The position numbers and the translations under genes are program-made. From positions 97,208,998 through 97,272,997 of the forward strand of contig CM056377.1 in assembly GCA_029718625.1 (NCBI GenBank): a DNA stretch of 64,000 nt, given 5' to 3'. The DNA is from Synaphobranchus kaupii (lineage: Eukaryota; Chordata; Actinopteri; Anguilliformes; Synaphobranchidae). The notes beneath the pieces are model-generated. The model ran no database searches and had not been told where the DNA came from. It worked only from the letters and a program-made list of their open reading frames with translations. How positions within the stretch are numbered: the first letter of the stretch is position 1; every line of letters starts with the position of its first letter. Positions 27,533 to 54,170 of this stretch are shown in pieces.

Positions 27533-28121
27533 TAGCTTTATTATATAGCACCTTTCATACATTAAAATGCAGCTCAAAGTGCTTTCCAAACATAATAAAA
27601 TATAATAAAAAAGACATGATAAAAACATAGTAAACAAAGAATGACAAATTTAAAAACATTAAAATAAAAGCATTAGATTAAATAATTAAAGGAGCAAATT
27701 ATAAACCAGCTCATGTGGATTTTTTATAACTCTGTCAATGTTAGCTAGATGCATGGCTGGCTATGTTTACGGTCACACAGATATAAGCTAACGTTAGTGG
27801 TATGTTTACCGAGTAACTATATACATGAATATATTTAAATCTTTAGCTAGCTAGCTAAATGGAAACGATGTTGAACTTAGCTTAGGCATTCGTAAATCGG
27901 CTGTCGGAGTGCCGGAGTACATCTGGTTGTTCGTAATGGGCAATGGACTCTGAGTCAACTTGGAGAATAGTGAATCACACAGGCCAAAACAAATACAGAC
28001 GTTCCGACCCGGAATGGAAATTTCAAAGACATACTGGCTGTAGCATTGTTGTCGAAGAAGGCAGTATTTCGATTTAGCATGTTTCCTTAATCATGGTCAT
28101 TTTATGATTTAGTACAGTACA

Positions 28122-28127
28122 TTTATT
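28122..28127 (-). terminator. Poly(A) signal of the factor H-like gene
   Basis: AATAAA on the minus strand, about 120 bp downstream of the TAA that ends the last sushi exon. The position fits a short 3' UTR. Confidence 0.55.
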
Positions 28128-28245
28128 ACATATAGCTCCTTTAAAATATTTTCATTCAAATGTGTACTTTTAAAATATTTTCATGGAATTTAATTGAATG
28201 AGAGCCAGATCACAAGCCTATTCCTCTATGAGAAATGTTCATTGG

Positions 28246-28433
28246 TTACTTACATGTTTTTGTCATCTTAATCTGGCCCTTGTCACACAGTACATCTACT
28301 GCGGTGTACCACCAGTTGTTGATATAATAGCCATATTTGCATCTAAGAGTTTCCTTTTTCCCATGTGCCAAATATTTTTCTCGTGGTTCCTCAATATTAT
28401 ACTGTGCATCCATGTTTTCTAACACACAAGGAT
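28246..28433 (-). CDS. Factor H-like: terminal sushi module and stop
   Basis: The acceptor TTTTCCATCAG precedes the exon, which enters in phase 1. The module has four Cys (PC, RC, LC, TC) with a Y-N-I segment after the first. It has a double Trp (INNWWYTA) before the third Cys rather than the usual Trp between Cys 3 and Cys 4. It ends M-T-K-T-C-K and TAA at 28246. In factor H the last module is the main C3d/sialic-acid binding site; function here is by analogy only. The stop overlaps a good donor-like TGTAAGTAA. If that were used as a splice site the last Cys would be split across exons, unlike all other exons here, so I prefer a true terminal exon. Confidence 0.8.
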
Positions 28434-28674
28434 CTGATGGAAAATAAAATGCACCCATTAGTTTTATTTTGTTTTCCAAAGCCACAATATATTCTTCTAC
28501 AAAACTGTACAAAACTTTTATTGTTTGCTCACAAACTGTTCTTCTACTGCTCTCAAACATGGTCTTGGGAACCCCTTAACAATGCTAGATTCAGAATGGA
28601 AGTAATCAATCCTTTTCAAGCAGGAATGTATGAAGTAATGAATAAAGTTTTTTCAGGAATGCTCGAACAAGTCT

Positions 28675-28850
28675 CCCGGGGGATATTCCACAAGGCAGGA
28701 TTACTGAGTTAGCTGGGCAATGTCACTGAGGGAAATCCGGAACAGCTCTTTATACTTGTTCCAGATTTGGGAGGGATCCAGGTTTTACTCTGTGCAGTTG
28801 TCCAGCTAACTGTAGTCCAGTAATCCTGCTATGTGGTATACATCCCTGAT
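28675..28850. mobile_element. Short MITE with inverted ends
   Basis: The left half contains 'gcaggattactgagttagct'. The right half contains the inverted counterpart 'agctaactgtagtccag' followed by 'taatcctgc'. It is 176 bp, non-coding, and its superfamily is not clear. A similar word set at about 29300-29420 may be a relative. Confidence 0.55.
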
Positions 28851-29589
28851 TTGTGCCAAATTACTCAGGGAGTAATTACTTATTATTAACAACCTTCCAG
28901 GTGCTGAATTAATTAAGTGTGTTAATGTACACTAGACTAGAGTATACTGGAGGCGGTGGGAGGGGTCAGGCAGTGAAGCATCCGGATGTGCACATGCAAA
29001 AGAGCTAGCTGTCTATTGAACTCATGTACAAAAACCATGCTGATTTGACAACCAAAGAAAACCTCATTGGTAAATTTTTTTGTGATCATAAATTTCATTT
29101 TGTGTAGCACTTTGTAAAACTGATTGTGTTTTATAATACAAATCCTATGGATTATATTAATAGCAATTAATAACACAAGATAAAATAATTCCATTGCATT
29201 AGCCAGTTAGCTAATGTAATGGTATTCATCAACCTACCTTGTTCAGTGAATGATTAACCATTCCCTCAAAGTTATTGAAATCACGGCCCTTGAGGGCTGA
29301 GAACTGGGCCCTGTTTTCACTTACGTGGCTAACTCAGTTAACCCGATTAGTTTGTTGACATTTCGGGATTAACCCAGGATTTTCGGCTTCAAAAAGCGAG
29401 TTCACAATTTAGCCAGACTTCTTACCAGGGCAACCTGTCTTAAGCCCAAACCTACAAACCCTCAGGTTTAAGCTTAAGTTAGCTTGAGAACATGAACATA
29501 GCCTATATAAGCCACATAGTGAAATCACACACTCTTATTCGATTTAGAAGGTGTTTTTCCAGACCGACATGATCCTTTAAGGCACTCGG

Positions 29590-29770
29590 ATGGTCATCTC
29601 TATGAACATTAGCTACTAATTTAGCTAAATGTATGAAACATTTAACAAAATATTTAATTAAATGTACAAATAATTTAGATAAATGTACAAACTTTTTACT
29701 AAATATATGAAACATTTTGCAAAATATTTAGCTAAATGTATAAATATTTATAAATGTATAAATATAAATG
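29590..29770. repeat. AT-rich tandem repeat, about 40-bp units
   Basis: Units built on 'tttagctaaatgta' followed by 'gaaacattt' or 'caaa' repeat about five times. It is non-coding. Confidence 0.7.
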
Positions 29771-29788
29771 TTTTCCCTTATCCCTCCG

Positions 29789-30953
29789 TGTCATGTTCGA
29801 CTTCCATTGTCCGTGTTTTCCCCCCGTTTTGCAGGCTGGGCGTGTTCCCTCCGTTTGTTCCACTCAATTACACCACTTCTATCTCAGCCTATCCCCTCTT
29901 CTGCATACATTCGTCACACTCCACTCTGTTCAATTAAACACACACACATTCACACGCTTTTCTAAATTGGTATCAATTACACTCCGTATTTAACTCACCC
30001 TCTTTCATCTGTTCACTGCCAGTTCATTAACGTTGTTGTTCGTTATCGTTGTTATTGAAAACTCTGGTCTAGTAAATTCCTTGTCTTAGTCTAGATGCAC
30101 AGTTCGGTTCCGTATTGGTGTTAGTTCACCCTGCCGGCGTGTTTAACCGTGCTTCCTGTGTTTGGTTCCGTTTTGGTGCTTAGGGCACTCTGCCAAACTA
30201 CAACCCTTAATCCTGTTCTGTTTGTGCGACTATACCTGCCGTGCAATAACCTGTCTGAGTAACCTCGTCTTTGTTTGAAGTCTGCCAGCCTGCAGTCGTT
30301 GTTCGACTCCCTGTTTGTGTTGCGGTACCCCCGCTTTCCACCTGACGTTGTGCCCGCAGCGGGGCACTCTGCTCTCCCACTCTACAGCTGTTCCTGTGTC
30401 CGGCCGTTGCCACTGCCAGTGCTATGGTTACGGTTGCGCCTGCTGCTGTTGTCCTGCTGCCACATCTGGGCTGACCCGAGGTCCGCTGCACTGTCCTGCC
30501 CTGCTGTTTCTGCTGCTGCCTTTCCTCTGCTTGTCTTGTTTGTCCAGTCTGTCCAGATCCGCCAAGTCCAGTTCCGGTTTGGAACATTTCCAGTTGTTCC
30601 GTCTGAGTCCAGAGTCCAGTCCCGGTTTGGGGTAATCCCTGACCGACTCCTAAAGTCCAGTTCCGGTTTGGAACATTTCCAGGTGTTCCGTCAAGTCCAG
30701 TTCCGGTTTAGAACATTTCCAGGTGTTCCAGTCTGTGTTCCGATCCAGTCCAGCTCTGGCTTGGAGCTTCCTGTCAAAGTCCAGCTCCGGCTTGGAGCAA
30801 GTGTGATGTCCCGGAGAAGATCCGAGGAAATGATTGTTTTGTATTGTTGTGTACTGCTTGGGACTGCCCCAAGTACAAATAAATAATCAGTTTTTTGTAC
30901 CTCTGCCTCCTTGTCGTTGCATTTGGGTTCAGCCCGTGTTCAGGTTTGTGACA
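29789..30953 (+). mobile_element. Probable LTR-like sequence with internal minisatellite
   Basis: It starts TGTCATGTTCG and ends GTTTGTGACA. Composition is C/T-rich like fish gypsy LTRs. An AATAAATAA stands at about 30880 in the place of a poly(A) signal, followed by a TTTTTTG tract. No 5-bp target duplication is visible, so boundaries may be eroded. The ORFs at 30207-30886 come from its biased composition. Confidence 0.45.
30563..30800. repeat. Minisatellite, about 40-bp units
   Basis: Five or so copies of 'aagtccagttccggtttgga' with 'acatttccaggtgttcc' between them. It sits inside the LTR-like block. Confidence 0.85.
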
Positions 30954-32276
30954 CAATCAGCACATTAGACAGGGGACTTTGTGGTGCGAGGGCGCCCTCT
31001 GGCGGTCACGGGTGGAATTGTGACAGTAACATTACAGTCTAGCCATAATAGATTGACAGCTCACCACCATTGTCATTACTTATGGTATACAAATCCAAGT
31101 CGACTCAGGCAGGGTTTTTTCCCCCCCATACTCCCCATACTTTAGCATTGAGCCTTATTCAGGCTCAACTTAGCTAATGTAGCTAATACCTAATAGGTTG
31201 CTAGCTAACTAGGTATAAACTGAACTAAACCAGAATAAGACAGACTATAGGTCCTTTAATTCTGAACTCGGCACTACTACTGTAAAACTCTGTGATATCA
31301 TAAACAATATAACGCAACATAGCTAGCCTTTCTGTGGCTAGCTAGCTATATTACTATCAGTACAACACTATAAAGCATACGTGTTGTACTGATAGCACAT
31401 ACAACACGCACACACACTTTGTACACATGGCAACACTTAGCTATGGAAGCCATGTTTTCTAGTTCAGATGAAGTCATGGATGTCAATCTCCTGAATTCAA
31501 AAGACGACGACAGAATTCAGCAGCAGTGCACAACTCAAGCACCGAAAATCCTTTTGTCGCTTTGCCAGTGTACGAAAAAGATTTCTCACCGGTGGTCACT
31601 ACACCATGTGTATAACACGCTTTCGTGCGTAAAGTAATAAAATAACGGAGGTTTATTAAAATAAGGATGCTTATTGATAATACTGTTCTGATAATACGCT
31701 CATGACACGCACAGCTCTGACAATCGCTCAAAACTGTCCAATGACTAATCTTGTACCTCTTTGGAAAGCTTAGAATGCATTCTTTTTGGATAATGAGGCT
31801 GTCAATCCATTACAATTAGTTTCATGATATTACAACTGCCCATTTGAATTGCGTAATGTTGCACACTTTTTTTCAGATTTCACCGGTGTTGAAATTACAC
31901 ATAATAATGTATGTAAGGTTATGACCTTATTCCATACCTTATGTGAGATTTTCATAAGGAAGGAAATTATATTATATAATTTTGCAGGAAATTATATGAT
32001 GACAGAAATGTACTATATTAAGTGAGCAGACAGAATATATATAATAATATGTTAATTGACGTATATTCAGGACCTTGTGTGTTTTTTATTGTTGTTGTGA
32101 TAGTGTACAATTTTTTTTTGTGGTGAAAGAAGAACTGTAACCAACTTCTAAATATATTTAAATGTCCAGTATCTTCAACCATATTCGCGCTCATGTAGAT
32201 CACACTGTAGAGTGGTTGAGATACTTTTATGAAATACGGAAGAACGGTGGCACGTAGAAACTTCATATTTTGCCCT
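30954..32276. other. No gene seen
   Basis: AT-rich intronic sequence with short ORFs lacking domains or splice support. Confidence 0.5.
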
Positions 32277-32281
32277 ATAAT

Positions 32282-32655
32282 TGTCATGGTTTTGACCCTG
32301 TTTCCCCATGTGGTCGTTTTCCTCGATGGCCACGCGAGGGCGCTGCCCTGTTGGTAGATGCTTGCTCCGCCCTGCTGAGTTGGGGGAGTTTCTGTTTGAG
32401 CGTTTGTTGTTTTTACACTCCCGCCCGTTATGTGTCTCGTTTCCGAGACAGGGCGCGTGTTTATTTCCGGCTGTTCAGATCCCTGTCTTTGCGCTCTACT
32501 GGGCGATTGGCAGTTAGCCGGTTAGTAGCGTTTTGTGTTCGTTGTCTTGTCTCCTTCCCTTATCTGCGGGGTATCCCGCCTTAGTGGCCTAAGGGCTTAA
32601 TGAATCCCCTTGCTGCGTTTGGCTCCTCCCACCTCACACGACACGCCCCATTACA
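32282..32655 (+). repeat. LTR 1 (5'-most, internally deleted)
   Basis: Only 374 bp. Its first 120 bp or so (to GAGCGTTTG) is joined directly to the segment starting TTGTTTTTACAC that lies 1.2 kb or more downstream in full LTRs. The loss removes the TATA box, the predicted start site and the self-primer, so this LTR should not drive transcription. It has private changes (ATGTGGTCG for ATGCGGTCG; CTCGATGG for CTCGGTGG). Confidence 0.9.
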
Positions 32656-33256
32656 GAATGTCGAAGCCATTACCGGGGCCAGCGGCTTTTTTAGGGGTAT
32701 TTTTTTTTTACTAAGAGGGGTTTAATGGATAACTTTACGGTGTGTGTCTTGGTTAATTGTGAGTTTCCCTTGGTGTTTTTTGTTTTCCAGCTACCCTGGT
32801 AGGTAGGCGCCGAGTGGGCCAGTTAACCTCTTTTGGTTTCCCAGCGGCCCACTACTTTATTATTTTGCCTTTTTTATTTTCGGGGTAATCCTGGATGGGG
32901 ATTTTATCCCTGTCAGGGGTACGCATTCAAGGGCTTTGGTCTCGGTTTGTAGGCCATTGCCCTTGAGTTAAGCGTTTAAAGTTGCCTCTTGCCCGGCACG
33001 CCTCAGGAAGATAGGCTATAGTAAGGTTTTGGGTAGGTAGCCAGGAACCAGGGTGCTGAGGAGTTTCCTCCAGGGTGCTTGTAGCCGGGCACTTGTTAGT
33101 TCCACACCCCCCTCACCCTTAGTCCCACCCTCCCTTCCCTTCCCTTCCAAAAAAAAAAAAATATTTGTATGTATTTTGTCGGGTATTTCTCTCCAGGAAC
33201 TTCCGCATGGTTTTTATTTCTGGGGTCGCCTGGGTCGCCCCTTAGAGGGGGGGTCC
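32656..33256 (+). repeat. Internal region 1
   Basis: 601 bp, non-coding. It starts G then AATGTCGAAGCC (32657-32668), the reverse complement of the predicted RNA 5' end in the full LTRs. It ends with the polypurine tract. It has private differences from the other internal regions (GTTAACCTC for GTTAATCTC; CCTGGATGG for CCTGGGTGG). Confidence 0.9.
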
Positions 33257-34933
33257 TGTCATGGTTTTGACCCTGTTTCCCCATGCGGTCGTTTTCCTCG
33301 GTGGCCACGCGAGGGCGCTGCCCTGTTGGTAGATGCTTGCTCCGCCCTGCTGAGTTGGGGGAGTTTCTGTTTGAGCGTTTGCACCTGTGCGTAGTTACCT
33401 GAGAGACATATAAGCCTACCGTTTCCTTCGTTCGGGGCTTCGACATTAATTGTTGTTTGTTTATTGTTACGTACTGTGGTGTTTTTGTTGGCTGTGAGTT
33501 ATTCGTACCCTGTTGGCTACTCGCCTTTTGTTAACGTCTCTTTGTTTAGGCAGGGCTTATTTCTTGCTGGTTTTGTAGTGGATTATCTCGTAGAAGTTTG
33601 GGACTGTAAATCTCTGCTCTAGTTCGCCTGTGTGCGTTTTCCTCCATGTATGGAGATTTGGGCGATGTTCGGAACTGTAGTTCTGTTCGCCCCTCGGTGC
33701 ATGTCGTCTCATGGGAGATCTGGCATTTCGCTTCTGCTAGGTTGCTTAGCTTGTAGAAGTGTAGAGTAGCTGTTCTTTGTTCCCTTTCGCCGGTTAATGG
33801 TTTTCTTATTGAGAGACCTGGCGTGTTAGCTTCTACTCATTTCCGGGTTACGGTAAGCCAGTTAGTAGCTTCGGTACGTTTATTCCCTGTTTTGTTCTCC
33901 TTCTCATGGACTACATTCTCCTTTGTTGTGAGTCTGGGTTTTTTTTTACTTATTCCTTTACTGTGAGGCTAGGGCGTGTGTTTATTTAAGTTTGCGGTGT
34001 CTTTTGGTTAGTAAGTTATGGGACGACGGTGCTCCGTCGGCTCGCCTGTAAATGTCTCTCCCTCCTGGGAGATCGGGTGTTTGCCCAGGTACGTTTGCTG
34101 CATTGGACTGCGCACTTATTTAACTAGTCATAGAACGTTAAATCTCTGTTCTTGTTCGCCTCGTTACATTTCTCCTTATTAAGAGGCTAGGGCGCGTGTT
34201 TGATCTAGTTTGCGTGAGTCTCTGGTTAGTAAGTTATGGGACGACGGTGCTCCGTCGGCTCGCCTGTAAATGTCTCTCCCTCCTGGGAGATCGGGTGTTT
34301 GCCCAGGTACGTTTGCTGCATTGGACTGCGCACTTATTTAACTAGTCATAGAACGTTAAATCTCTGTTCTTGTTCGCCTCGTTACATTTCTCCTGTCTGA
34401 GAGGCAGGGCTTGTGCTTGTGTTAGTCAGTTAGCCGTTGGTTAAGGTGCAGCTGTCCTTTTCATCTTTTTGTACTTTCCTTCTCCGTGTATAGGAGATGT
34501 GGGCGATTCGGTTCGGAACTTTAGTTCTGTTCGTCCTTCGGTGCAATTCGTCTCTTAGGGAGACCGGTTGATGATGTTGGACATGTTTGCGTGTGACTGC
34601 AAGCCTTTAAGCCACGGAACGTTGGATCTGTTCCTCTCGCCTCCTCATACTATTGTATTATTTTTGCAGTGTTTGTGTTTTATGTTGTTTTTACACTCCC
34701 GCCCGTTATGTGTCTCGTTTCCGAGACAAGGCGCGTGTTTATTTCCGGCTGTTCAGATCCCTGTCTTTGCGCTCTACTGGGCGATTGGCAGTTAGCCGGT
34801 TAGTAGCGTTTTGTGTTCGTTGTCTTGTCTCCTTCCCTTATCTGCGGGGTATCCCGCCTTAGTGGCCTAAGGGCTTAATGAATCCCCTTGCTGCGTTTGG
34901 CTCCTCCCACCTCACACGACACGGCCCATTACA
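33257..34933 (+). repeat. LTR 2 (full, 1677 bp, two VNTR units)
   Basis: The TATA element is TATAAG at 33409-33414. The predicted RNA start and self-primer GGCTTCGACATT lie at 33436-33447, 27 bp from TATA. A short U3 of about 180 bp is followed by a very long R/U5-like part made of degenerate modules with TCTC...GAGA stem-loops and two copies of the 218-bp VNTR (near 34014 and 34232). No AATAAA was noticed within it. Confidence 0.9.
33409..33447 (+). promoter_or_regulatory. LTR promoter: TATA box and self-primer/start
   Basis: TATAAG is followed 27 bp later by GGCTTCGACATT, whose exact reverse complement stands at the start of every internal region. The same arrangement recurs in LTRs 3 to 6 (for example TATAAG at 43365-43370) and is absent from deleted LTR 1. 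Confidence 0.75.
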
Positions 34934-35528
34934 GAATGTCGAAGCCATTACCGGGGCCAGCGGCTTTTTTAGGGGTATTTTTTTTTACTAAGAGGGGTTT
35001 AATGGATAACTTTACGGTGTGTGTCTTGGTTAATTGTGAGTTTCCCTTGGTGTTTTTTGTTTTCCAGCTACCCTGGTAGGTAGGCGCCGAGTGGGCCAGT
35101 TAATCTCTTTTGGTTTCCCAGCGGCCCACTACTTTATTATTTTGCCTTTTTTATTTTCGGGGTAATCCTGGGTGGGGATTTTATCCCTGTCAGGGGTACG
35201 CATTCAAGGGCTTTGGTCTCGGTTTGTAGGCCATTGCCCTTGAGTTAAGCGTTTAAAGTTGCCTCTTGCCCGGCACGCCTCAGGAAGATAGGCTATAGTA
35301 AGGTTTTGGGTAGGTAGCCAGGAACCAGGGTGCTGAGGAGTTTCCTCCAGGGTGCTTGTAGCCGGGCACTTGTTAGTTCCACACCCCCCTCACCCTTAGT
35401 CCCACCCTCCCTTCCCTTCCAAAAAAAAATAAATATTTGTATGTATTTTGTCGGGTATTTCTCTCCAGGAACTTCCGCATGGTTTTTATTTCTGGGGTCG
35501 CCTGGGTCGCCCCTTAGAGGGGGGGTCC
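34934..35528 (+). repeat. Internal region 2
   Basis: 595 bp, non-coding. Primer-binding site at 34935-34946, polypurine tract before 35529. The poly(A) stretch near 35421 differs in length from the other copies. Confidence 0.9.
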
Positions 35529-37638
35529 TGTCATGGTTTTGACCCTGTTTCCCCATGCGGTCGTTTTCCTCGGTGGCCACGCGAGGGCGCTGCCCTGTTG
35601 GTAGATGCTTGCTCCGCCCTGCTGAGTTGGGGGAGTTTCTGTTTGAGCGTTTGCACCTGTGCGTAGTTACCTGAGAGACATATAAGCCTACCGTTTCCTT
35701 CGTTCGGGGCTTCGACATTAATTGTTGTTTGTTTATTGTTACGTACTGTGGTGTTTTTGTTGGCTGTGAGTTATTCGTACCCTGTTGGCTACTCGCCTTT
35801 TGTTAACGTCTCTTTGTTTAGGCAGGGCTTATTTCTTGCTGGTTTTGTAGTGGATTATCTCGTAGAAGTTTGGGACTGTAAATCTCTGCTCTAGTTCGCC
35901 TGTGTGCGTTTTCCTCCGTGTATGGAGATTTGGGCGATGTTCAGAACTGTAGTTCTGTTCGCCCCTCGGTGCATGTCGTCTCATGGGAGATCTGGCGTTT
36001 CGCTTCTGCTAGGTTGCTTAGCTTGTAGAAGTGTAGAGTAGCTGTTCTTTGTTCCCTTTCGCCGGTTAATGGTTTTCTTATTGAGAGACCTGGCGTGTTA
36101 GCTTCTACTCATTTCCGGGTTACGGTAAGCCAGTTAGTAGCTTCGGTACGTTTATTCCCTGTTTTGTTCTCCTTCTCATGGACTACGTTCTCCTTTGTTG
36201 TGAGTCGGGGTTTTTTTTTACTTATTCCTTTACTGTGAGGCTAGGGCGTGTGTTTATTTAAGTTCGCGGTGTCTTTTGGTTAGTAAGTTTTGGGACGACG
36301 GTGCCCCGTCGGCTCACCTGTAAAATGTTTCTCTCATGGGAGATCGGGTGTTTACCCAGGTATGTTTGCTGCATTAGACTGCGAACTTATTTAAGTAGCC
36401 ATGGAACGTTAAATCTTTGTTCCTGTTCGCCTCGTTATATTTCTCCTTATTAAGAGGCTAGGGCACGTGTTTGGTCTAGTTTGCGTGAGTCTCTGGTTAG
36501 TAAGTTATGGGACGACGGTGCTCCGTCGGCTCGCCTGTAAATGTCTCTCCCTCCTGGGAGATCGGGTGTTTGCCCAGGTACGTTTGCTGCATTGGACTGC
36601 GCACTTGTTAAACTAGCCATAGAACGTTAAGTCTGTTCCTGTTCGCCTCGTTACATTTCTCCTTATTAAGAGGCTAGGGCGCGTGTTTGATCTAGTTTGC
36701 GTGAGTCTCTGGTTAGTAAGTTATGGGACGACGGTGCTCCGTCGGCTCGCCTGTAAATGTCTCTCCCTCCTGGGAGATCGGGTGTTTGCCCAGGTACGTT
36801 TGCTGCATTGGACTGCGCACTTATTTAACTAGTCATAGAACGTTAAATCTCTGTTCTTGTTCGCCTCGTTACATTTCTCCTTATTAAGAGGCTAGGGCGC
36901 GTGTTTGATCTAGTTTGCGTGAGTCTCTGGTTAGTAAGTTATGGGACGACGGTGCTCCGTCGGCTCGCCTGTAAATGTCTCTCCCTCCTGGGAGATCGGG
37001 TGTTTGCCCAGGTACGTTTGCTGCATTGGACTGCGCACTTATTTAACTACTCATAGAACGTTAAATCTCTGTTCTTGTTCGCCTCGTTACATTTCTCCTG
37101 TCTGAGAGGCAGGGCTTGTGCTTGTGTTAGTCAGTTAGCCGTTGGTTAAGGTGCAGCTGTCCTTTTCATCTTTTTGTACTTTCCTTCTCCGTGTATAGGA
37201 GATGTGGGCGATTCGGTTCGGAACTTTAGTTCTGTTCGTCCTTCGGTGCAATTCGTCTCTTAGGGAGACCGGTTGATGATGTTGGACATGTTTGCGTGTG
37301 ACTGCAAGCCTTTAAGCCACGGAACGTTGGATCTGTTCCTCTCGCCTCCTCATACTATTGTATTATTTTTGCAGTGTTTGTGTTTTATGTTGTTTTTACA
37401 CTCCCGCCCGTTATGTGTCTCGTTTCCGAGACAGGGCGCGTGTTTATTTCCGGCTGTTCAGATCCCTGTCTTTGCGCTCTACTGGGCGATTGGCAGTTAG
37501 CCGGTTAGTAGCGTTTTGTGTTCGTTGTCTTGTCTCCTTCCCTTATCTGCGGGGTATCCCGCCTTAGTGGCCTAAGGGCTTAATGAATCCCCTTGCTGCG
37601 TTTGGCTCCTCCCACCTCACACGACACGCCCCATTACA
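35529..37638 (+). repeat. LTR 3 (2110 bp, four VNTR units)
   Basis: Full LTR with TATA and self-primer. It is longer than LTR 2 by 433 bp, two extra 218-bp units. The first unit is the diverged type (GGGACGACGGTGCCCC). Confidence 0.9.
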
Positions 37639-38233
37639 GAATGTCGAAGCCATTACCGGGGCCAGCGGCTTTTTTAGGGGTATTTTTTTTACTAAGAGGG
37701 GTTTAATGGATAACTTTACGGTGTGTGTCTTGGTTAATTGTGAGTTTCCCTTGGTGTTTTTTGTTTTCCAGCTACCCTGGTAGGTAGGCGCCGAGTGGGC
37801 CAGTTAATCTCTTTTGGTTTCCCAGCGGCCCACTACTTTATTATTTTGCCTTTTTTATTTTCGGGGTAATCCTGGGTGGGGATTTTATCCCTGTCAGGGG
37901 TACGCATTCAAGGGCTTTGGTCTCGGTTTGTAGGCCATTGCCCTTGAGTTAAGCGTTTAAAGTTGCCTCTTGCCCGGCACGCCTCAGGAAGATAGGCTAT
38001 AGTAAGGTTTTGGGTAGGTAGCCAGGAACCAGGGTGCTGAGGAGTTTCCTCCAGGGTGCTTGTAGCCGGGCACTTGTTAGTTCCACACCCCCCTCACCCT
38101 TAGTCCCACCCTCCCTTCCCTTCCAAAAAAAAATAAATATTTGTATGTATTTTGTCGGGTATTTCTCTCCAGGAACTTCCGCATGGTTTTTATTTCTGGG
38201 GTCGCCTGGGTCGCCCCTTAGAGGGGGGGGTCC
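37639..38233 (+). repeat. Internal region 3
   Basis: 595 bp, nearly identical to internal region 2. Primer-binding site at 37640-37651. Confidence 0.9.
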
Positions 38234-40343
38234 TGTCATGGTTTTGACCCTGTTTCCCCATGCGGTCGTTTTCCTCGGTGGCCACGCGAGGGCGCTGCCC
38301 TGTTGGTAGATGCTTGCTCCGCCCTGCTGAGTTGGGGGAGTTTCTGTTTGAGCGTTTGCACCTGTGCGTAGTTACCTGAGAGACATATAAGCCTACCGTT
38401 TCCTTCGTTCGGGGCTTCGACATTAATTGTTGTTTGTTTATTGTTACGTACTGTGGTGTTTTTGTTGGCTGTGAGTTATTCGTACCCTGTTGGCTACTCG
38501 CCTTTTGTTAACGTCTCTTTGTTTAGGCAGGGCTTATTTCTTGCTGGTTTTGTAGTGGATTATCTCGTAGAAGTTTGGGACTGTAAATCTCTGCTCTAGT
38601 TCGCCTGTGTGCGTTTTCCTCCGTGTATGGAGATTTGGGCGATGTTCAGAACTGTAGTTCTGTTCGCCCCTCGGTGCATGTCGTCTCATGGGAGATCTGG
38701 CGTTTCGCTTCTGCTAGGTTGCTTAGCTTGTAGAAGTGTAGAGTAGCTGTTCTTTGTTCCCTTTCGCCGGTTAATGGTTTTCTTATTGAGAGACCTGGCG
38801 TGTTAGCTTCTACTCATTTCCGGGTTACGGTAAGCCAGTTAGTAGCTTCGGTACGTTTATTCCCTGTTTTGTTCTCCTTCTCATGGACTACGTTCTCCTT
38901 TGTTGTGAGTCGGGGTTTTTTTTTACTTATTCCTTTACTGTGAGGCTAGGGCGTGTGTTTATTTAAGTTTGCGGTGTCTTTTGGTTAGTAAGTTTTGGGA
39001 CGACGGTGCCCCGTCGGCTCACCTGTAAAATGTTTCTCTCATGGGAGATCGGGTGTTTACCCAGGTATGTTTGCTGCATTAGACTGCAAACTTATTTAAG
39101 TAGCCATGGAACGTTAAATCTTTGTTCCTGTTCACCTCGTTATATTTCTCCTTATTAAGAGGCTAGGGCACGTGTTTGGTCTAGTTTGCGTGAGTCTCTG
39201 GTTAGTAAGTTATGGGACGACGGTGCTCCGTCGGCTCGCCTGTAAATGTCTCTCCCTCCTGGGAGATCGGGTGTTTGCCCAGGTACGTTTGCTGCATTGG
39301 ACTGCGCACTTGTTAAACTAGCCATAGAACGTTAAGTCTGTTCCTGTTCGCCTCGTTACATTTCTCCTTATTAAGAGGTTAGGGCGCGTGTTTGATCTAG
39401 TTTGCGTGAGTCTCTGGTTAGTAAGTTATGGGACGACGGTGCTCCGTCGGCTCGCCTGTAAATGTCTCTCCCTCCTGGGAGATCGGGTGTTTGCCCAGGT
39501 ACGTTTGCTGCATTGGACTGCGCACTTATTTAACTAGTCATAGAACGTTAAATCTCTGTTCTTGTTCGCCTCGTTACATTTCTCCTTATTAAGAGGCTAG
39601 GGCGCGTGTTTGATCTAGTTTGCGTGAGTCTCTGGTTAGTAAGTTATGGGACGACGGTGCTCCGTCGGCTCGCCTGTAAATGTCTCTCCCTCCTGGGAGA
39701 TCGGGTGTTTGCCCAGGTACGTTTGCTGCATTGGACTGCGCACTTATTTAACTAGTCATAGAACGTTAAATCTCTGTTCTTGTTCGCCTCGTTACATTTC
39801 TCCTGTCTGAGAGGCAGGGCTTGTGCTTGTGTTAGTCAGTTAGCCGTTGGTTAAGGTGCAGCTGTCCTTTTCATCTTTTTGTACTTTCCTTCTCCGTGTA
39901 TAGGAGATGTGGGCGATTCGGTTCGGAACTTTAGTTCTGTTCGTCCTTCGGTGCAATTCGTCTCTTAGGGAGACCGGTTGATGATGTTGGACATGTTTGC
40001 GTGTGACTGCAAGCCTTTAAGCCACGGAACGTTGGATCTGTTCCTCTCGCCTCCTCATACTATTGTATTATTTTTGCAGTGTTTGTGTTTTATGTTGTTT
40101 TTACACTCCCGCCCGTTATGTGTCTCGTTTCCGAGACAGGGCGCGTGTTTATTTCCGGCTGTTCAGATCCCTGTCTTTGCGCTCTACTGGGCGATTGGCA
40201 GTTAGCCGGTTAGTAGCGTTTTGTGTTCGTTGTCTTGTCTCCTTCCCTTATCTGCGGGGTATCCCGCCTTAGTGGCCTAAGGGCTTAATGAATCCCCTTG
40301 CTGCGTTTGGCTCCTCCCACCTCACACGACACGCCCCATTACA
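38234..40343 (+). repeat. LTR 4 (2110 bp, four VNTR units)
   Basis: Almost identical to LTR 3 in length and sequence. LTR 3 plus internal 3 and LTR 4 plus internal 4 look like a recent tandem duplication of one 2.7-kb unit. Confidence 0.9.
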
Positions 40344-40936
40344 GAATGTCGAAGCCATTACCGGGGCCAGCAGCTTTTTTAGGGGTATTTTTTTTACTAA
40401 GAGGGGTTTAATGGATAACTTTACGGTGTGTGTCTTGGTTAATTGTGAGTTTCCCTTGGTGTTTTTTGTTTTCCAGCTACCCTGGTAGGTAGGCGCCGAG
40501 TGGGCCAGTTAATCTCTTTTGGTTTCCCAGCGGCCCACTACTTTATTATTTTGCCTTTTTTATTTTCGGGGTAATCCTGGGTGGGGATTTTATCCCTGTC
40601 AGGGGTACGCATTCAAGGGCTTTGGTCTCGGTTTGTAGGCCATTGCCCTTGAGTTAAGCGTTTAAAGTTGCCTCTTGCCCGGCACGCCTCAGGAAGATAG
40701 GCTATAGTAAGGTTTTGGGTAGGTAGCCAGGAACCAGGGTGCTGAGGAGTTTCCTCCAGGGTGCTTGTAGCCGGGCACTTGTTAGTTCCACACCCCCCTC
40801 ACCCTTAGTCCCACCCTCCCTTCCCTTCCAAAAAAAAAAAATATTTGTATGTATTTTGTCGGGTATTTCTCTCCAGGAACTTCCGCATGGTTTTTATTTC
40901 TGGGGTCGCCTGGGTCGCCCCTTAGAGGGGGGGTCC
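40344..40936 (+). repeat. Internal region 4
   Basis: 593 bp, non-coding. Primer-binding site at 40345-40356. Confidence 0.9.
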
Positions 40937-42612
40937 TGTCATGGTTTTGACCCTGTTTCCCCATGCGGTCGTTTTCCTCGGTGGCCACGCGAGGGCGCTG
41001 CCCTGTTGGTAGATGCTTGCTCCGCCCTGCTGAGTTGGGGGAGTTTCTGTTTGAGCGTTTGCACCTGTGCGTAGTTACCTGAGAGACATATAAGCCTACC
41101 GTTTCCTTCGTTCGGGGCTTCGACATTAATTGTTGTTTGTTTATTGTTACGTACTGTGGTGTTTTTGTTGGCTGTGAGTTATTCGTACCCTGTTGGCTAC
41201 TCGCCTTTTGTTAACGTCTCTTTGTTTAGGCAGGGCTTATTTCTTGCTGGTTTTGTAGTGGATTATCTCGTAGAAGTTTGGGACTGTAAATCTCTGCTCT
41301 AGTTCGCCTGTGTGCGTTTTCCTCCATGTATGGAGATTTGGGCGATGTTCGGAACTGTAGTTCTGTTCGCCCCTCGGTGCATGTCGTCTCATGGGAGATC
41401 TGGCATTTCGCTTCTGCTAGGTTGCTTAGCTTGTAGAAGTGTAGAGTAGCTGTTCTTTGTTCCCTTTCGCCGGTTAATGGTTTTCTTATTGAGAGACCTG
41501 GCGTGTTAGCTTCTACTCATTTCCGGGTTACGGTAAGCCAGTTAGTAGCTTCGGTACGTTTATTCCCTGTTTTGTTCTCCTTCTCATGGACTACATTCTC
41601 CTTTGTTGTGAGTCGGGGTTTTTTTTTACTTATTCCTTTACTGTGAGGCTAGGGCGTGTGTTTATTTAAGTTTGCGGTGTCTTTTGGTTAGTAAGTTTTG
41701 GGACGACGGTGCCCCGTCGGCTCACCTGTAAAATGTTTCTCTCATGGGAGATCGGGTGTTTACCCAGGTATGTTTGCTGCATTAGACTGCAAACTTATTT
41801 AAGTAGCCATGGAACGTTAAATCTTTGTTCCTGTTCGCCTCGTTATATTTCTCCTTATTAAGAGGCTAGGGCGCGTGTTTGGTCTAGTTTGCGTGAGTCT
41901 CTGGTTAGTAAGTTATGGGACGACGGTGCTCCGTCGGCTCGCCTGTAAATGTCTCTCCCTCCTGGGAGATCGGGTGTTTGCCCAGGTACGTTTGCTGCAT
42001 TGGACTGCGCACTTATTTAACTAGTCATAGAACGTTAAATCTCTGTTCTTGTTCGCCTCGTTACATTTCTCCTGTCTGAGAGGCAGGGCTTGTGCTTGTG
42101 TTAGTCAGTTAGCCGTTGGTTAAGGTGCAGCTGTCCTTTTCATCTTTTTGTACTTTCCTTCTCCGTGTATAGGAGATGTGGGCGATTCGGTTCGGAACTT
42201 TAGTTCTGTTCGTCCTTCGGTGCAATTCGTCTCTTAGGGAGACCGGTTGATGATGTTGGACATGTTTGCGTGTGACTGCAAGCCTTTAAGCCACGGAACG
42301 TTGGATCTGTTCCTCTCGCCTCCTCATACTATTGTATTATTTTTGCAGTGTTTGTGTTTTATGTTGTTTTTACACTCCCGCCCGTTATGTGTCTCGTTTC
42401 CGAGACAGGGCGCGTGTTTATTTCCGGCTGTTCAGATCCCTGTCTTTGCGCTCTACTGGGCGATTGGCAGTTAGCCGGTTAGTAGCGTTTTGTGTTCGTT
42501 GTCTTGTCTCCTTCCCTTATCTGCGGGGTATCCCGCCTTAGTGGCCTAAGGGCTTAATGAATCCCCTTGCTGCGTTTGGCTCCTCCCACCTCACACGACA
42601 CGCCCCATTACA
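40937..42612 (+). repeat. LTR 5 (1676 bp, two VNTR units)
   Basis: Same length class as LTR 2, but its first VNTR unit is the diverged type as in LTRs 3, 4 and 6. This suggests mosaic exchange among copies. Confidence 0.9.
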
Positions 42613-43212
42613 GAATGTCGAAGCCATTACCGGGGCCAGCGGCTTTTTTAGGGGTATTTTTTTTACTAAGAGGGGTTTAATGGATAACTTTACGGTGTGT
42701 GTCTTGGTTAATTGTGAGTTTCCCTTGGTGTTTTTTGTTTTCCAGCTACCCTGGTAGGTAGGCGCCGAGTGGGCCAGTTAATCTCTTTTGGTTTCCCAGC
42801 GGCCCACTACTTTATTATTTTGCCTTTTTTATTTTCGGGGTAATCCTGGGTGGGGATTTTATCCCTGTCAGGGGTACGCATTCAAGGGCTTTGGTCTCGG
42901 TTTGTAGGCCATTGCCCTTGAGTTAAGCGTTTAAAGTTGCCTCTTGCCCGGCACGCCTCAGGAAGATAAGATAGGCTATAGTAAGGTTTTGGGTAGGTAG
43001 CCAGGAACCAGGGTGCTGAGGAGTTTCCTCCAGGGTGCTTGTAGCCGGGCACTTGTTAGTTCCACAACCCCCTCACCCTTAGTCCCACCCTCCCTTCCCT
43101 TCCCTTCCAAAAAAAAATATTTGTATGTATTTTGTCGGGTATTTCTCTCCAGGAACTTCCGCATGGTTTTTATTTCTGGGGTCGCCTGGGTCGCCCCTTA
43201 GAGGGGGGGTCC
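42613..43212 (+). repeat. Internal region 5
   Basis: 600 bp. Primer-binding site at 42614-42625. It has a private 5-bp duplication (GATAAGATAGG) near 42965 and ACAACCCC for ACACCCCC. Confidence 0.9.
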
Positions 43213-45540
43213 TGTCATGGTTTTGACCCTGTTTCCCCATGCGGTCGTTTTCCTCGGTGGCCACGCGAGGGCGCTGCCCTGTTGGTAGATGCTTGCTCCG
43301 CCCTGCTGAGTTGGGGGAGTTTCTGTTTGAGCGTTTGCACCTGTGCGTAGTTACCTGAGAGACATATAAGCCTACCGTTTCCTTCGTTCGGGGCTTCGAC
43401 ATTAATTGTTGTTTGTTTATTGTTACGTACTGTGGTGTTTTTGTTGGCTGTGAGTTATTCGTACCCTGTTGGCTACTCGCCTTTTGTTAACGTCTCTTTG
43501 TTTAGGCAGGGCTTATTTCTTGCTGGTTTTGTAGTGGATTATCTCGTAGAAGTTTGGGACTGTAAATCTCTGCTCTAGTTCGCCTGTGTGCGTTTTCCTC
43601 CATGTATGGAGATTTGGGCGATGTTCGGAACTGTAGTTCTGTTCGCCCCTCGGTGCATGTCGTCTCATGGGAGATCTGGCATTTCGCTTCTGCTAGGTTG
43701 CTTAGCTTGTAGAAGTGTAGAGTAGCTGTTCTTTGTTCCCTTTCGCCGGTTAATGGTTTTCTTATTGAGAGACCTGGCGTGTTAGCTTCTACTCATTTCC
43801 GGGTTACGGTAAGCCAGTTAGTAGCTTCGGTACGTTTATTCCCTGTTTTGTTCTCCTTCTCATGGACTACATTCTCCTTTGTTGTGAGTCGGGTTTTTTT
43901 TTTACTTATTCCTTTACTGTGAGGCTAGGGCGTGTGTTTATTTAAGTTTGCGGTGTCTTTTGGTTAGTAAGTTTTGGGACGACGGTGCCCCGTCGGCTCA
44001 CCTGTAAAATGTTTCTCTCATGGGAGATCGGGTGTTTACCCAGGTATGTTTGCTGCATTAGACTGCGAACTTATTTAAGTAGCCATGGAACGTTAAATCT
44101 TTGTTCCTGTTCGCCTCGTTATATTTCTCCTTATTAAGAGGCTAGGGCGCGTGTTTGGTCTAGTTTGCGTGAGTCTCTGGTTAGTAAGTTATGGGACGAC
44201 GGTGCTCCGTCGGCTCGCCTGTAAATGTCTCTCCCTCCTGGGAGATCGGGTGTTTGCCCAGGTACGTTTGCTGCTTTGGACTGCGCACTTGTTAAACTAG
44301 CCATAGAATGTTAAGTGTCTGTTCCTGTTCGCCTCGTTACATTTCTCCTTATTAAGAGGCTAGGGCGCGTGTTTGATCTAGTTTGCGTGAGTCTCTGGTT
44401 AGTAAGTTATGGGACGACGGTGCTCCGTCGGCTCGCCTGTAAATGTCTCTCCCTCCTGGGAGATCGGGTGTTTGCCCAGGTACGTTTGCTGCATTGGACT
44501 GCGCACTTGTTAAACTAGCCATAGAACGTTAAGTCTGTTCCTGTTCGCCTCGTTACATTTCTCCTTATTAAGAGGCTAGGGCGCGTGTTTGATCTAGTTT
44601 GCGCGAGTCTCTGGTTAGTAAGTTATGGGACGACGGTGCTCCGTCGGCTCGCCTGTAAATGTCTCTCCCTCCTGGGAGATTGGGTGTTTGCCCAGGTACG
44701 TTTGCTGCATTGGACTGCGCACTTATTTAACTAGTCATAGAACGTTAAATCTCTGTTCTTGTTCGCCTCGTTACATTTCTCCTTATTAAGAGGCTAGGGC
44801 GCGTGTTTGATCTAGTTTGCGTGAGTCTCTGGTTAGTAAGTTATGGGACGACGGTGCTCCGTCGGCTCGCCTGTAAATGTCTCTCCCTCCTGGGAGATCG
44901 GGTGTTTGCCCAGGTACGTTTGCTGCATTGGACTGCGCACTTATTTAACTAGTCATAGAACGTTAAATCTCTGTTCTTGTTCGCCTCGTTACATTTCTCC
45001 TGTCTGAGAGGCAGGGCTTGTGCTTGTGTTAGTCAGTTAGCCGTTGGTTAAGGTGCAGCTGTCCTTTTCATCTTTTTGTACTTTCCTTCTCCGTGTATAG
45101 GAGATGTGGGCGATTCGGTTCGGAACTTTAGTTCTGTTCGTCCTTCGGTGCAATTCGTCTCTTAGGGAGACCGGTTGATGATGTTGGACATGTTTGCATG
45201 TGACTGCAAGCCTTTAAGCCACGGTACGTTGGATCTGTTCCTCTCGCCTCCTCATACTATCGTATTATTTTTGCAGTGTTTGTGTTTTATGTTGTTTTTA
45301 CGCTCCCGCCCGTTATGTGTCTCGTTTCCGAGACAGAGCGCGTGTTTATTTCCGGCTGTTCAGATCCCTGTCTTTGCGCTCTACTGGGCGATTGGCAGTT
45401 AGCCGGTTAGTAGCGTTTTGTGTTCGTTGTCTTGTCTCCTTCCCTTATCTGCGGGGTATCCCGCCTTAGTGGCCTAAGGGCTTAATGAATCCCCTTGCTG
45501 CGTTTGGCTCCTCCCACCTCACACGACACGCCCCATTACA
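43213..45540 (+). repeat. LTR 6 (3'-most, 2328 bp, five VNTR units)
   Basis: Longest LTR. It ends CCCATTACA exactly at the ATAAT target duplication. Its last 350 bp carry several private changes (GTTTGCATG, TACGCTCCCG, GACAGAGCGCG) not present in the inner copies. Confidence 0.9.
44160..44985 (+). repeat. 218-bp VNTR within LTR (best example, LTR 6)
   Basis: Unit of 217-218 bp beginning TTAGTAAGTTATGGGACGAC. Each unit has two perfect stem-loops, CGACGG-TGCT-CCGTCG and TCTCCC-TCCT-GGGAGA. Copy number is 2, 4, 4, 2 and 5 in LTRs 2 to 6. Confidence 0.9.
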
Positions 45541-45545
45541 ATAAT

Positions 45546-46020
45546 ATAACAAATGGCACTGATGAAGATGATATGTTTTCCATGATACCACGCTTTCTGA
45601 CGTGGTACAGTAGGATGTTTGTGATGTAGACCCCAGCGTCTATGCCACAAGGGGGCCTGAACAAAGGGGGTTAAGTATATTCATACTTAGTTTGTGATTT
45701 TAGACATTCCATTGTGAAACAAATACATTATTACATTGATAGTATACATTTTTTTATGATATCAATGCAAAATAGATACATCGTCTTCCACTGCAGTGGA
45801 ATGCGCACAGCTGTTAAACGGACTGAAAAGAGGTAATTTTAACGGCTATGGTTGATTCCATCTAAAACACATCCACTGATAAATATTCATCCTAACCAAA
45901 GCCATTTTCAACCTGTGCACTGCTCATCTCTCATCACAAAAATAACAAAATTCAGTAGCCATGCCCAGTGTGCCATGTGCTGCGCAATTGACTGTGCCTA
46001 TTCTCTGTGCACCGGAAAAT
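45546..46020. other. No gene seen
   Basis: Intron sequence right of the LTR array. I see only a small hairpin (ACCACGCTTTCTGACGTGGT) near 45587. Confidence 0.5.
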
Positions 46021-46021
46021 A

Positions 46022-46680
46022 GAGCCCCTATAGGGTAACTACACTCTAGATCACTTTTTTTTCCGCTGTAAACGCATTCGTATGCCTACCTTATAATGAA
46101 ACTTATTCATGCATTTCGTTATTTCAACAATTCTGAAATAATATTGTATATCATAAAAAACTGGTAGAAAAGCGTCTTTGTGCTGCCCCTAATGGTTGAA
46201 ATTTCCTTTCTGCTCCCCACACTTCCCCTGCCCCAAACGTGATGTCAGAGTACCTCTTTGGAGGTACCTCTATGTCATATGGATAATTGTTGTCGCCCAC
46301 AACAGAAACAGCCGGCACCTGATTGGTTAGACCCGCTACGTTACTTTCGGTTCGCCTCCACGTTTTTAAACCAGAACAACGTGCCGTCCTGTACAATTAT
46401 CTTATTCCACTAAAATATGTTTCAAAAAATATTTGAGGTGAGAAATAGGCCATGCAGTTGCTGAATCTTGATTCATATTTGATGCGCAATGTCTAGTTTG
46501 ACAGTTTGATCCGAGTTATACAAAATCATTTGTACAATGTACCTTAATTTATGCAAATGACGATGGACACAGCTCCTCCGCCCCCATCCCTCTCCCTCGC
46601 TCACCCCACAAAGTATTTTTCAAAATTGTGTAGTAGGCGGAGACAGGCTGAGACAGTGGGTGTAGTTACTCTTTAAAGGG
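46022..46680. mobile_element. Possible MITE with GGGTAACTACAC ends
   Basis: The left end 'cccctatagggtaactacac' has an inverted counterpart 'gtgtagttactctttaaagg' at 46660-46679. The right end overlaps the start of the next MITE, so the two were inserted one against the other. The ORF inside is not supported. Confidence 0.45.
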
Positions 46681-47165
46681 GTAATAAACACGGCTTTTGT
46701 TCTGTCTCCGCCCACTTCACAATTTCAAAAGACGCGAATTGGGCTCGAGTGAGAGAACAAAGACGGGAGGGGGGAGGAGGGAGGAGTTACAGGGGGGGCA
46801 ATAGGTCCATTCGGTAACGCGTCATGAAAACTGTTCAAACGGAAACCCGTTTGAAATTAAAGGGCTAACGTTAATTTGTGCAGCTTGAATACCCATCAAT
46901 CAAGAAGAGGGAAAGAGGGGGCGTTGACTTGCTTGCGCAGAAAAAAGGTTTTTACCTTTTTTCATGTCACGAATAGGGGGCATGGTTGAAACAAAATGTT
47001 TCAGTTTGCGTTTCAGTGAATGCCTCTTTTTTGACACAAAATGCAGTGGCATGGCTTAATTACACTTTAGTTTTTTTACACAATAGGATATATGTGATTT
47101 ATGAAATGGAGACAAGATACTCAGCTTTATAACCCAAAATATTTGATTTAGTGTTTATTACCCCT
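46677..47165. mobile_element. piggyBac-type MITE (TTAA target)
   Basis: Perfect 15-bp inverted ends AGGGGTAATAAACAC and GTGTTTATTACCCCT, each flanked by TTAA (46673-46676, 47166-47169), the target site of piggyBac elements. 489 bp, non-coding. Confidence 0.8.
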
Positions 47166-47356
47166 TTAAGATTGAATTCTGTTCCACATTCCATATTAAT
47201 TGCAGAGACCTATCAATAGTACAACAGGTCATTTACGAGACACACAGAATGTTGCGTATGCTATCAAAATGCCATTGGTTAATTTCTGGAAAACTTTTCT
47301 GTCATTCCTAACTCCAGTGTATTGCACATATAATATAAATTTTGTGATATACTCAC

Positions 47357-47533
47357 GTATACAAACTGGAAATGGCTTCCATTCCCCCATGTGGCATTTT
47401 ACTTTGCTGTCATCTTCAAGCTCATAAAAGCGTTTACACTTATAGGTAATTACAGTCTCACCATCTTTCACATCTTTTACTAGAATGTCTCCATTTTCTG
47501 GGATTGGAGGATCTTTACATGATACATCTGAAC
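47357..47533 (-). CDS. Factor H-like: sushi module (penultimate)
   Basis: 177-bp phase-1 exon, acceptor CATTTCAG, donor C|GTGAGT. One SCR module: V-S-C-K-D-P-P-I-P-E-N-G-D at the start, then ITYKCKRFYELEDDSKVKC, then G-E-W-K-P-F-P-V-C with the conserved Trp between the third and fourth Cys. The P-P-I-P-E-N-G-D form is the classic factor H-type opening. It is followed on the gene by the 18.9-kb last intron. Confidence 0.9.
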
Positions 47534-47723
47534 CTGAAATGATTAAATTGTTTAGGGTCTAGCCAAGGGTCTGCTATTAAGATGTCACATGCAAACTGTT
47601 CAAAATCAGATGTTTAACAGGCCATAATTATGATACCGTTACACTGCAAATGACGAGAAGGGTTCAGGGTAACCCAAATATATTTTCATCCCATTTCTTT
47701 GCATATTGCTTGTTTTTTAATTG

Positions 47724-49382
<1,659 letters not shown>

Positions 49383-52546: not shown

Positions 52547-54170
52547 CAGTCAAGCCGGAAGGTCTGCACACCCCTTTCACCTTCTCCACGTTTTATTACG
52601 TTACAGACATATTCTACAATAGATTGAGTTCATTTTTTGTCTCAACATTCTACACAAAATAGGCCATAATGACAAAGTGAAAACAGGTTTTTAGACATTT
52701 GTGCCTTAATTTGTGATTAAAAATCAAAATGTAAAATATCATATGTACACAAGTGTGCACACCCTTTGATATGACACCCAAAAGTGAGCTGAGGTGCATT
52801 TTGTTTCCACTGATACTGTTTGAGATGTTTCTACAACTTAATTGGAGTCCACCTGTGATAAATTCAATTGATTGGACATGATTGGGGATTGCCAACACCT
52901 GCCTATACAGTGCATGTCAGAGCAAACTCCAAGCCATGGGGTCAAAGGAATTATCTGCAGACCTCAGAAACAGGATTGTGTCAAGGATCTGGAGAAGGGT
53001 ACGGAAAAATCTCTGCAGCTTTACAGGTCCCAAAGAGCACAGTGGCCACCATCATTCGTAAATGGAAGAAGTTTGGAACCACCAAGAATCTTCCTAGACC
53101 TGGCCGCCCCGGCCAAACTGAGCAATCGGGGAAGATGGGCCTTGGCCAGGGAGGTGAGCAGGAACCCGAGGGTCACTCTGATAGAGCTCCAGCGTATCCT
53201 TGTGGAGATGGGAGAACCTTTCAGAAGATCAACCATCCAGGCAGCACTCCACCAATCAGGCCTTTATGGTAGAGTGGCCAGACGGAAGCCCCTCCTTAGT
53301 AAAAGGCACATCACAGCCCGCTTGGAGTTTGCCAAAAGGCACCTAGAGGACTCTCAAACCATGAGAATCAAGATTCTCTGGTCTGATGAAACCAAAATTG
53401 AACTTTTTGGCCTGAATACCAAGCGTCACGTCTGGAGGAAACCAGGCACCGCTCATCACCTGGCTAATACAATCCCTACAGTGAAGCATGGCGGTGGCAG
53501 CATCATGATGTGGGGATGTTTTTCAGCAGCGGGAATGGGGCAACTAGTCCTGATAGAGGGAAAGATGAATGCAGCTAAGTACACCGAGATCCTTGAAGAA
53601 AACCTGCTCCAGAGCGCTCTGGACCTCAGACTGGGGCGAAGGTTTACCTTCCAACATGACAACGACCCGAAGCACACAGCCAAGAGAACAAAGGAGTGGC
53701 TTCGGAGAAAGTCTGTGCATGTCCTTGAGTGGCCCAGCCAGAGCCCAGACCTGAATCCAATTGAACATCTGTGGAAAGAGCTGAAAATGGCTGTGTACCG
53801 ACGCTCCCCATCCAACCTGACGGAGCTTGCAAGGATATGCCAAGAGGAATGGGCAAAAATGTCCAGAAACAAGTGTGCCAAGCTCGTAGCTTCTTTCCCA
53901 AGACGCCTTGAAGCTGTAATCGCTGCCAAAGGTGCAGCAACCAAGTATTAGGCTAAGGGTGTGTACAGATATGTAACTCCTAAATAACCTATTTTTGTCA
54001 GTAAAATAAAATTGCATATTTTCTAAAAACCTGTTTTCACTTCGTCATTATTGACTATTGTGTGTAGATGATTGAGGCAAAAAATGAACTCAATCTATTG
54101 TAGTATAAGTCTGTAACATAATAAAACGTAGAGAAGGTGAAAGGGGTGTGCAGACTTTCCGGCTTGACTG
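52547..54170 (+). mobile_element. Tc1 transposon, near-intact, IR/DR type
   Basis: 1624 bp. Ends CAGTCAAGCCGGAAGGTCTG and its complement (TTCCGGCTTGACTG) with inner repeats (GTGTGCACACCC, GGGTGTGTACA) about 200 bp inside. TA is present at the left; the right flank reads TTTATA. It is the best-preserved transposon in the window but has a disrupted transposase N-terminus. Confidence 0.95.
52936..53951 (+). pseudogene. Tc1 transposase with intact DDE domain, two N-terminal frameshifts
   Basis: The ATG at 52936 opens [17 protein letters not shown], the usual Tc1 start. A shift at about 52993 moves the reading to [17 protein letters not shown] (first helix-turn-helix) and [17 protein letters not shown] (GRPR-like hinge). 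An extra C in the CCCC run near 53108 moves it back to [15 protein letters not shown]. From there to the TAG after AAKGAATKY (53951) one frame is open. It holds all three catalytic residues: [13 protein letters not shown] (Asp), [11 protein letters not shown] (Asp) and [13 protein letters not shown] (Glu). The enzyme would use cut-and-paste at TA sites. The two shifts prevent a full-length product in this copy. Confidence 0.9.

Follow-up and report, generated by a model that had tools for sequence, protein, structure and literature searches.

Locus and gene context

The window analysed here is a DNA stretch of 64,000 nucleotides, in which positions 32277-45545 are occupied by six LTRs and five internal regions (as assembled), running in one orientation from LTR1 and internal region 1 to internal region 5 and LTR6. 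The array lies 1.8 kb from a minus-strand Sushi (CCP) exon, detected by Pfam, whose best structure matches were to complement factor H. A candidate last exon of the same gene was read by eye at 28249-28575 from its CCP-like cysteine pattern, which we take to resemble that of the last CCP of factor H. The original prediction had placed the array inside the last intron of an immune gene: the immune gene is supported by the nearby Sushi exon and its factor H matches, whereas Pfam and PDB searches gave no support to the last exon (~28.25-28.58 kb). The array would be antisense to the factor H-like gene. The features of the locus are as follows.

28249-28575, minus strand: candidate last exon, CCP-like cysteine pattern
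32277-32281, no strand: left target duplication ATAAT, 5 bp
32282-32655, plus strand: LTR1, 374 bp, deletion form
32656-33256, plus strand: internal region 1, primer binding site (PBS) at its start, polypurine tract at its end
33257-34933, plus strand: LTR2, 1677 bp, 2 monomers, jump from 748 to 1400 relative to LTR6
33409-33414, plus strand: TATAAG motif of LTR2, LTR position 153, same place in LTR3-6
33436-33447, plus strand: proposed self-primer GGCTTCGACATT of LTR2, putative transcript 5' end, LTR position 180, same place in LTR3-6
34934-35528, plus strand: internal region 2
34935-34946, plus strand: primer binding site of internal region 2, AATGTCGAAGCC, complementary to the proposed self-primer
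35529-37638, plus strand: LTR3, 2110 bp, 4 monomers, jump from 946 to 1165 relative to LTR6
37639-38233, plus strand: internal region 3
38234-40343, plus strand: LTR4, 2110 bp, 4 monomers, sister of LTR3 with the same jump
40344-40936, plus strand: internal region 4
40937-42612, plus strand: LTR5, 1676 bp, 2 monomers, jump from 946 to 1599 relative to LTR6
42613-43212, plus strand: internal region 5
43213-45540, plus strand: LTR6, 2328 bp, the longest LTR, 5 monomers of 216-218 bp at 43921-45007
45541-45545, no strand: right target duplication ATAAT, 5 bp
47355-47525, minus strand: Sushi (CCP) exon, complement factor H-like gene (E = 7.7e-7)

Several other repeats are present in the window, where the Pfam search outside the array covered 40 of the 62 open reading frames of at least 90 amino acids. 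A separate tandem array at 695-4055 has a 152-bp unit in about 20 copies at 94% match, with one end more diverged. The kilobase at 30001-31000 is T-rich and G+C-rich (GC 0.515, AT skew -0.36) and carries a 40-bp repeat; its composition is like that of the LTR array, without sequence similarity to it, and it is possibly another non-coding element. Remnants of Tc1/mariner-type transposases were found at 8655-9266, 48527-49045, 52872-53948 (an open frame of 359 codons) and 54377-54907, and reverse transcriptase fragments at 56790-57791 and 19135-20070, the former above and the latter below the Pfam cut-off for RVT_1. Taken with the factor H-like exon, the Tc1-like transposase remnants suggest that the DNA comes from a fish.

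Array anatomy and boundaries

All six LTRs and five internal regions that the original prediction had described were located in the sequence, and so was the single pair of target duplications said to bracket the whole. Every LTR starts with TGTCATG and ends with CATTACA. The five internal regions, 593-601 bp long, all begin with GAATGTCGAAGCC and finish in a G-rich tract (7 or 8 G) before the next TGTCATG. ATAAT stands at both outer edges and at none of the internal junctions; at the density of ATAAT in the flanks (3.6 per kb), the probability of meeting it by chance at the right edge is ~0.004. All ten internal junctions pass straight between LTR and internal region, without an extra target duplication or host DNA. 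Features of tandem LTR retrotransposons that are seen here are an alternating order of LTRs and internal regions with an LTR at both extremes (32282-45540), and a single target duplication around the whole array with none inside it.

The array is T-rich, with an AT skew per kb that is mostly -0.31 to -0.45 from 32 to 45 kb. A search of the array-masked window with LTR6 and internal region 2 for further copies yielded one 24-base match (E = 0.03), which we judged to be due to chance; the window thus has no copy outside the array. A pattern spanning the LTR/internal start had no matches in viral contigs, and Rfam had none over 28000-48000.

A putative self-primed, non-autonomous element

The first bases of the internal regions, AATGTCGAAGCC, pair over 12 bases with GGCTTCGACATT at LTR position 180 in all five full LTRs, and in each of these the pairing segment is located 27 bases past the TATAAG motif. 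Such a match is rare in controls: GGGGCTTCGACATTAATT occurs five times in the window versus none in 100 shuffles, 545 control windows of internal region 2 matched LTR2 over 9 bases at most, and 1000 simulated LTRs gave one match of 11 bases and none of 12. When 1.56 kb of RNA from LTR position 178, a start that we chose, was folded for two of the five full LTRs (LTR2 and LTR5) without a shuffled control, the pairing probability between primer and site was 0.85-1.00 at each of the 12 pairs. The 12-base complementarity between the primer site and the LTR implies self-priming from a putative transcript start. ARAGORN detected no tRNA genes in the window, and there is thus no local tRNA to serve as a primer.

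The LTR ends fit the Tf1/sushi motifs TGTYANR and CNTNACA in all six cases. Against the sushi pattern, neither AATAAA nor ATTAAA was found in any of the six LTRs. A Pfam search of 10 of the 16 array open reading frames of at least 90 amino acids gave no match above the cut-off, and hence none of the pol domains that define a chromovirus; we attribute to chance the lone array match (E = 0.036, half its cut-off), which extends beyond the array into its left flank. Since no pol domain was found and the internal regions are 593-601 bp long, the element can be at most a non-autonomous relative of Tf1/sushi rather than an autonomous member. Judged from its anatomy, it looks non-autonomous (an internal region of about 600 bp, no domain in the scanned frames) and Tf1/sushi-like. 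Assignment to TRIMs was also considered and rejected: the undeleted LTRs are 1676-2328 bp long and the primer site matches the LTR, whereas TRIMs are <1000 bp, with 100-250 bp repeats and a tRNA primer site (PMC6934838).

LTR1 deletion and LTR minisatellite

LTR1 consists of the first ~123 and the last ~251 LTR bases joined at a 2-base (TG) microhomology. It is shorter than LTR2-6 by 1.3 to 1.95 kb, and the TATA motif, the proposed primer and the minisatellite are all gone from it. This minisatellite is a 218-bp tandem repeat (monomers of 216-218 bp) that is present within LTR2-6 in 2, 4, 4, 2 and 5 monomers, respectively. In a jumping alignment with LTR6 as the template, one jump each suffices for LTR2 (748 to 1400), LTR3 and LTR4 (946 to 1165) and LTR5 (946 to 1599), the jump positions being uncertain inside stretches of identical monomers. 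By this alignment, the inner LTRs have lost monomers via different jumps. The LTR minisatellite, the LTR1 deletion and the self-priming anatomy are new relative to the original prediction.

Divergence among the units

The closest pair in the array is LTR3 with internal region 3 versus LTR4 with internal region 4, which differ by 6 substitutions in 2703 aligned bases (0.22%, 95% interval 0.08-0.48) and 2 indels, in agreement with the duplicated 2.7-kb unit proposed originally. LTR3 and LTR4 have sites 390, 415, 469, 659, 937 and 1392 in common, in addition to an identical monomer jump. The two ends of the array, LTR1 and LTR6, differ by 4 substitutions in 374 bases (1.07%, 95% interval 0.29-2.74). 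Internal regions 2, 3 and 4 are 0-1 substitutions apart from each other, internal region 1 is 3 substitutions away from each of the others, and internal region 5 differs from internal regions 2-4 by 5-6 substitutions, partly in a poly-A/CCTT tract of uncertain alignment.

Outer copies had been said to carry private changes and inner ones to be nearly identical. Two sites were excluded from the counts: 1392 of LTR6, which is otherwise present only in the sister copies LTR3 and LTR4, and 2077 of LTR1, which falls at the junction of the deletion. On this basis, LTR1 and LTR6 together have 9 private substitutions in 2484 bp, whereas LTR2-5 have 7 in 7573 bp (P = 0.007). The contrast weakens to 9 versus 12 (P = 0.05) when five of the sites shared by LTR3 and LTR4 are scored as inner changes, and the claim holds to that extent.

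Putatively chimeric LTRs and the polarity of CpG decay

The sites specific to the outer LTRs are unevenly distributed. Counting sites where LTR6 differs from all other copies, whichever side changed, five of eight LTR6-specific sites fall within its last 343 bases (P = 0.004), or five of seven without site 1392 (P = 0.002). The two LTR1-specific substitutions, at 30 and 45, are both within the first 45 bases.

Decay of CpG sites divides the LTRs differently in their 5' and 3' parts. Sites 390, 469 and 659 are decayed in LTR2, LTR5 and LTR6 and intact in LTR3 and LTR4, while site 415 is decayed in LTR3 and LTR4 only. Toward the 3' end, site 2049 is decayed in LTR2-5 and site 2090 in LTR1-5, both being intact in LTR6, and the CpG decays of LTR6 itself, at 1469 and 1986, are missing from every copy that covers these sites. 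The 3' parts of LTR2 and LTR5 have no LTR6 alleles and equal LTR1 at both LTR6-specific sites that are still present in LTR1. On this pattern, LTR2 and LTR5 look chimeric, with 5' parts that go with LTR6 (three decayed CpGs) and 3' parts that stand apart from it. If the LTRs are rooted, the group of LTR2, LTR5 and LTR6 and the group of LTR1-5 overlap without nesting, so recombination is needed in LTR2 and LTR5 between 659 and 2049. This interval contains the minisatellite and the jumps of both LTRs.

Two sites (LTR6 coordinates) speak against LTR3 and LTR4 as a close pair. At 855, only LTR4 and LTR5 have lost the CpG, and at 737 only LTR3 has kept it, which points to recurrent CpG decay or to gene conversion within the array. 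Because CpG decay recurs, the polarity that any single site provides is weak. Of the two tail sites that are decisive, LTR1 retains 2090 and lacks 2049, and it has none of the head sites; because it is deleted at most of the decisive CpGs, the LTR1 type is mostly one that we infer. That LTR3 and LTR4 retain the upstream type at 390-659 is a guess.

A probable single insertion and its growth in place

The best-supported reading, and one that we consider likely, is that a single insertion was enlarged in situ through unequal exchange between LTRs. The element, a non-autonomous LTR retrotransposon of Tf1/sushi type that is probably self-primed, would have inserted once, leaving the one 5-bp duplication and the one outer pair of ends that are observed, and its two original LTRs would then have diverged. 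As the polarity of shared changes suggests, unequal exchange between the downstream LTR of one chromatid and the upstream LTR of the other would have produced extra LTR-internal units. In every inner LTR formed in this way, the 5' part would derive from the downstream partner and the 3' part from the upstream one; as a result, the head of LTR1 and the tail of LTR6 would never be copied and would remain single-copy. The 218-bp minisatellite was probably the exchange site or close to one, which would account for the loss of monomers at different jumps in the inner LTRs. A later exchange of one unit would have given rise to the near-identical pair of LTR3-internal 3 and LTR4-internal 4, and LTR1 probably lost its middle, with the promoter and primer, after that. 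One insertion followed by growth in place was also the original prediction, and it is borne out by the single 5-bp duplication, the one outer end pair, the recent duplication of an LTR-internal unit and the chimeric inner LTRs with the expected polarity. Its description of a retroelement turning into a satellite was overstated: satellite DNA forms long homogeneous arrays of many units, and here there are five LTR-internal units at one locus.

Some observations could be read otherwise. The LTR6 differences are crowded in ~140 bp and could represent one gene-conversion tract, and the loss of monomers may be due to separate slippage; both count against growth by exchange. Heterogeneity of the source that predates the insertion may likewise count against growth in place. 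A rather unlikely alternative is that a ready-made multimer was inserted, formed by read-through transcription of a one-LTR circle or by recombination of cDNAs from copies that differed slightly, and underwent only minor changes later. A single target duplication fits this equally well, the varying monomer numbers and the 390-659 block could stem from different source copies, and both routes are still possible in rice according to PMC11899658. However, the divergence between units 3 and 4 is far below that between the array ends, which requires at least one later duplication or conversion, and a ready-made multimer does not predict the head/tail polarity of the changes.

An assembly error in the copy number or in the duplication of units 3 and 4, for example two haplotypes joined in tandem, strikes us as quite improbable. 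The 6 substitutions in 2703 bases between these units are within ordinary heterozygosity, but units 1, 2 and 5 and LTR6 are each distinct in monomer number or indels and hence are not assembler copies, so that the real risk is confined to the unit 3/4 pair. Still less credible is an origin from several independent insertions of one family that were nested or joined by recombination. Recombination of adjacent elements into tandems has been proposed for Wukong and Cassandra (PMC4528315), but here the direct passage at all ten internal junctions already disfavours it.

Growth of a single insertion by LTR-LTR exchange can be taken further, more tentatively. Possibly, the LTR minisatellite of a self-primed, non-autonomous vertebrate element of sushi type is a built-in exchange site, by which a single insertion could repeatedly enlarge itself; the inner LTRs would then be dated crossover products, and units 2-5, each of which retains a promoter, primer, primer site and polypurine tract, might be mobilisable by an autonomous relative. 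In structural terms, the array is a clear candidate for self-priming by a non-coding element of vertebrate type, and its LTR minisatellite is a candidate recombination site beside an exon of an immune gene.

Comparison with known systems

Among the matches listed from the open-licence literature, there was no vertebrate self-primed non-coding tandem element. Self-priming itself has been described in Tf1/sushi elements of yeast and vertebrates (PMC6317226, PMC4600332). The array element resembles Tf1/sushi chromoviruses (PMC3601003, PMC6317226, PMC4600332) in the LTR ends TGTYANR...CNTNACA, the primer site complementary to the transcript start (putative here), as in self-priming, and the T-rich LTR; unlike them, it has no coding region, no AATAAA and a very long R-U5 with a minisatellite.

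Multi-LTR arrangements are known from several non-autonomous families. The biv-TRIM arrays of bivalves (LTRn-In-1, up to 58 repeats; PMC6934838) also consist of a non-autonomous animal LTR element in tandem with shared LTRs, although these are TRIMs of <1000 bp with 100-250 bp repeats, whereas here the LTRs are 1.7-2.3 kb long, with an internal minisatellite and an assignable primer site. The maize TRIM Wukong (PMC4528315) likewise forms elements with multiple LTRs (three to seven), attributed to unequal recombination; it is a short plant TRIM, however, and recombination between adjacent elements is favoured for it. LTR-derived satellites have been tabulated, one fish case among them (PMC9659126), and the routes are reviewed in PMC12628747.

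Rice and other plants have tandem LTR retrotransposons that share with the array the alternation of LTR and internal region, an LTR at both ends, one 5-bp duplication, high identity and a single insertion (PMC11899658). Tandem elements with one target duplication are common in plants, kangaroo and Drosophila cases are cited, and the choice between in-place exchange and ready-made insertion is left open (PMC11899658). The selected rice elements code for proteins and the two detailed ones have three LTRs, whereas the array has six, is non-coding, is found in an animal-like genome and carries marks of its growth route. Old changes should be distributed along the LTRs differently under the two routes, and the distribution observed favours exchange; this locus, with its alleles, could thus decide between the routes in one instance. 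On the one hand, tandem LTR elements are already known from plants and bivalves; on the other hand, the growth history of the array described here is unusually readable.
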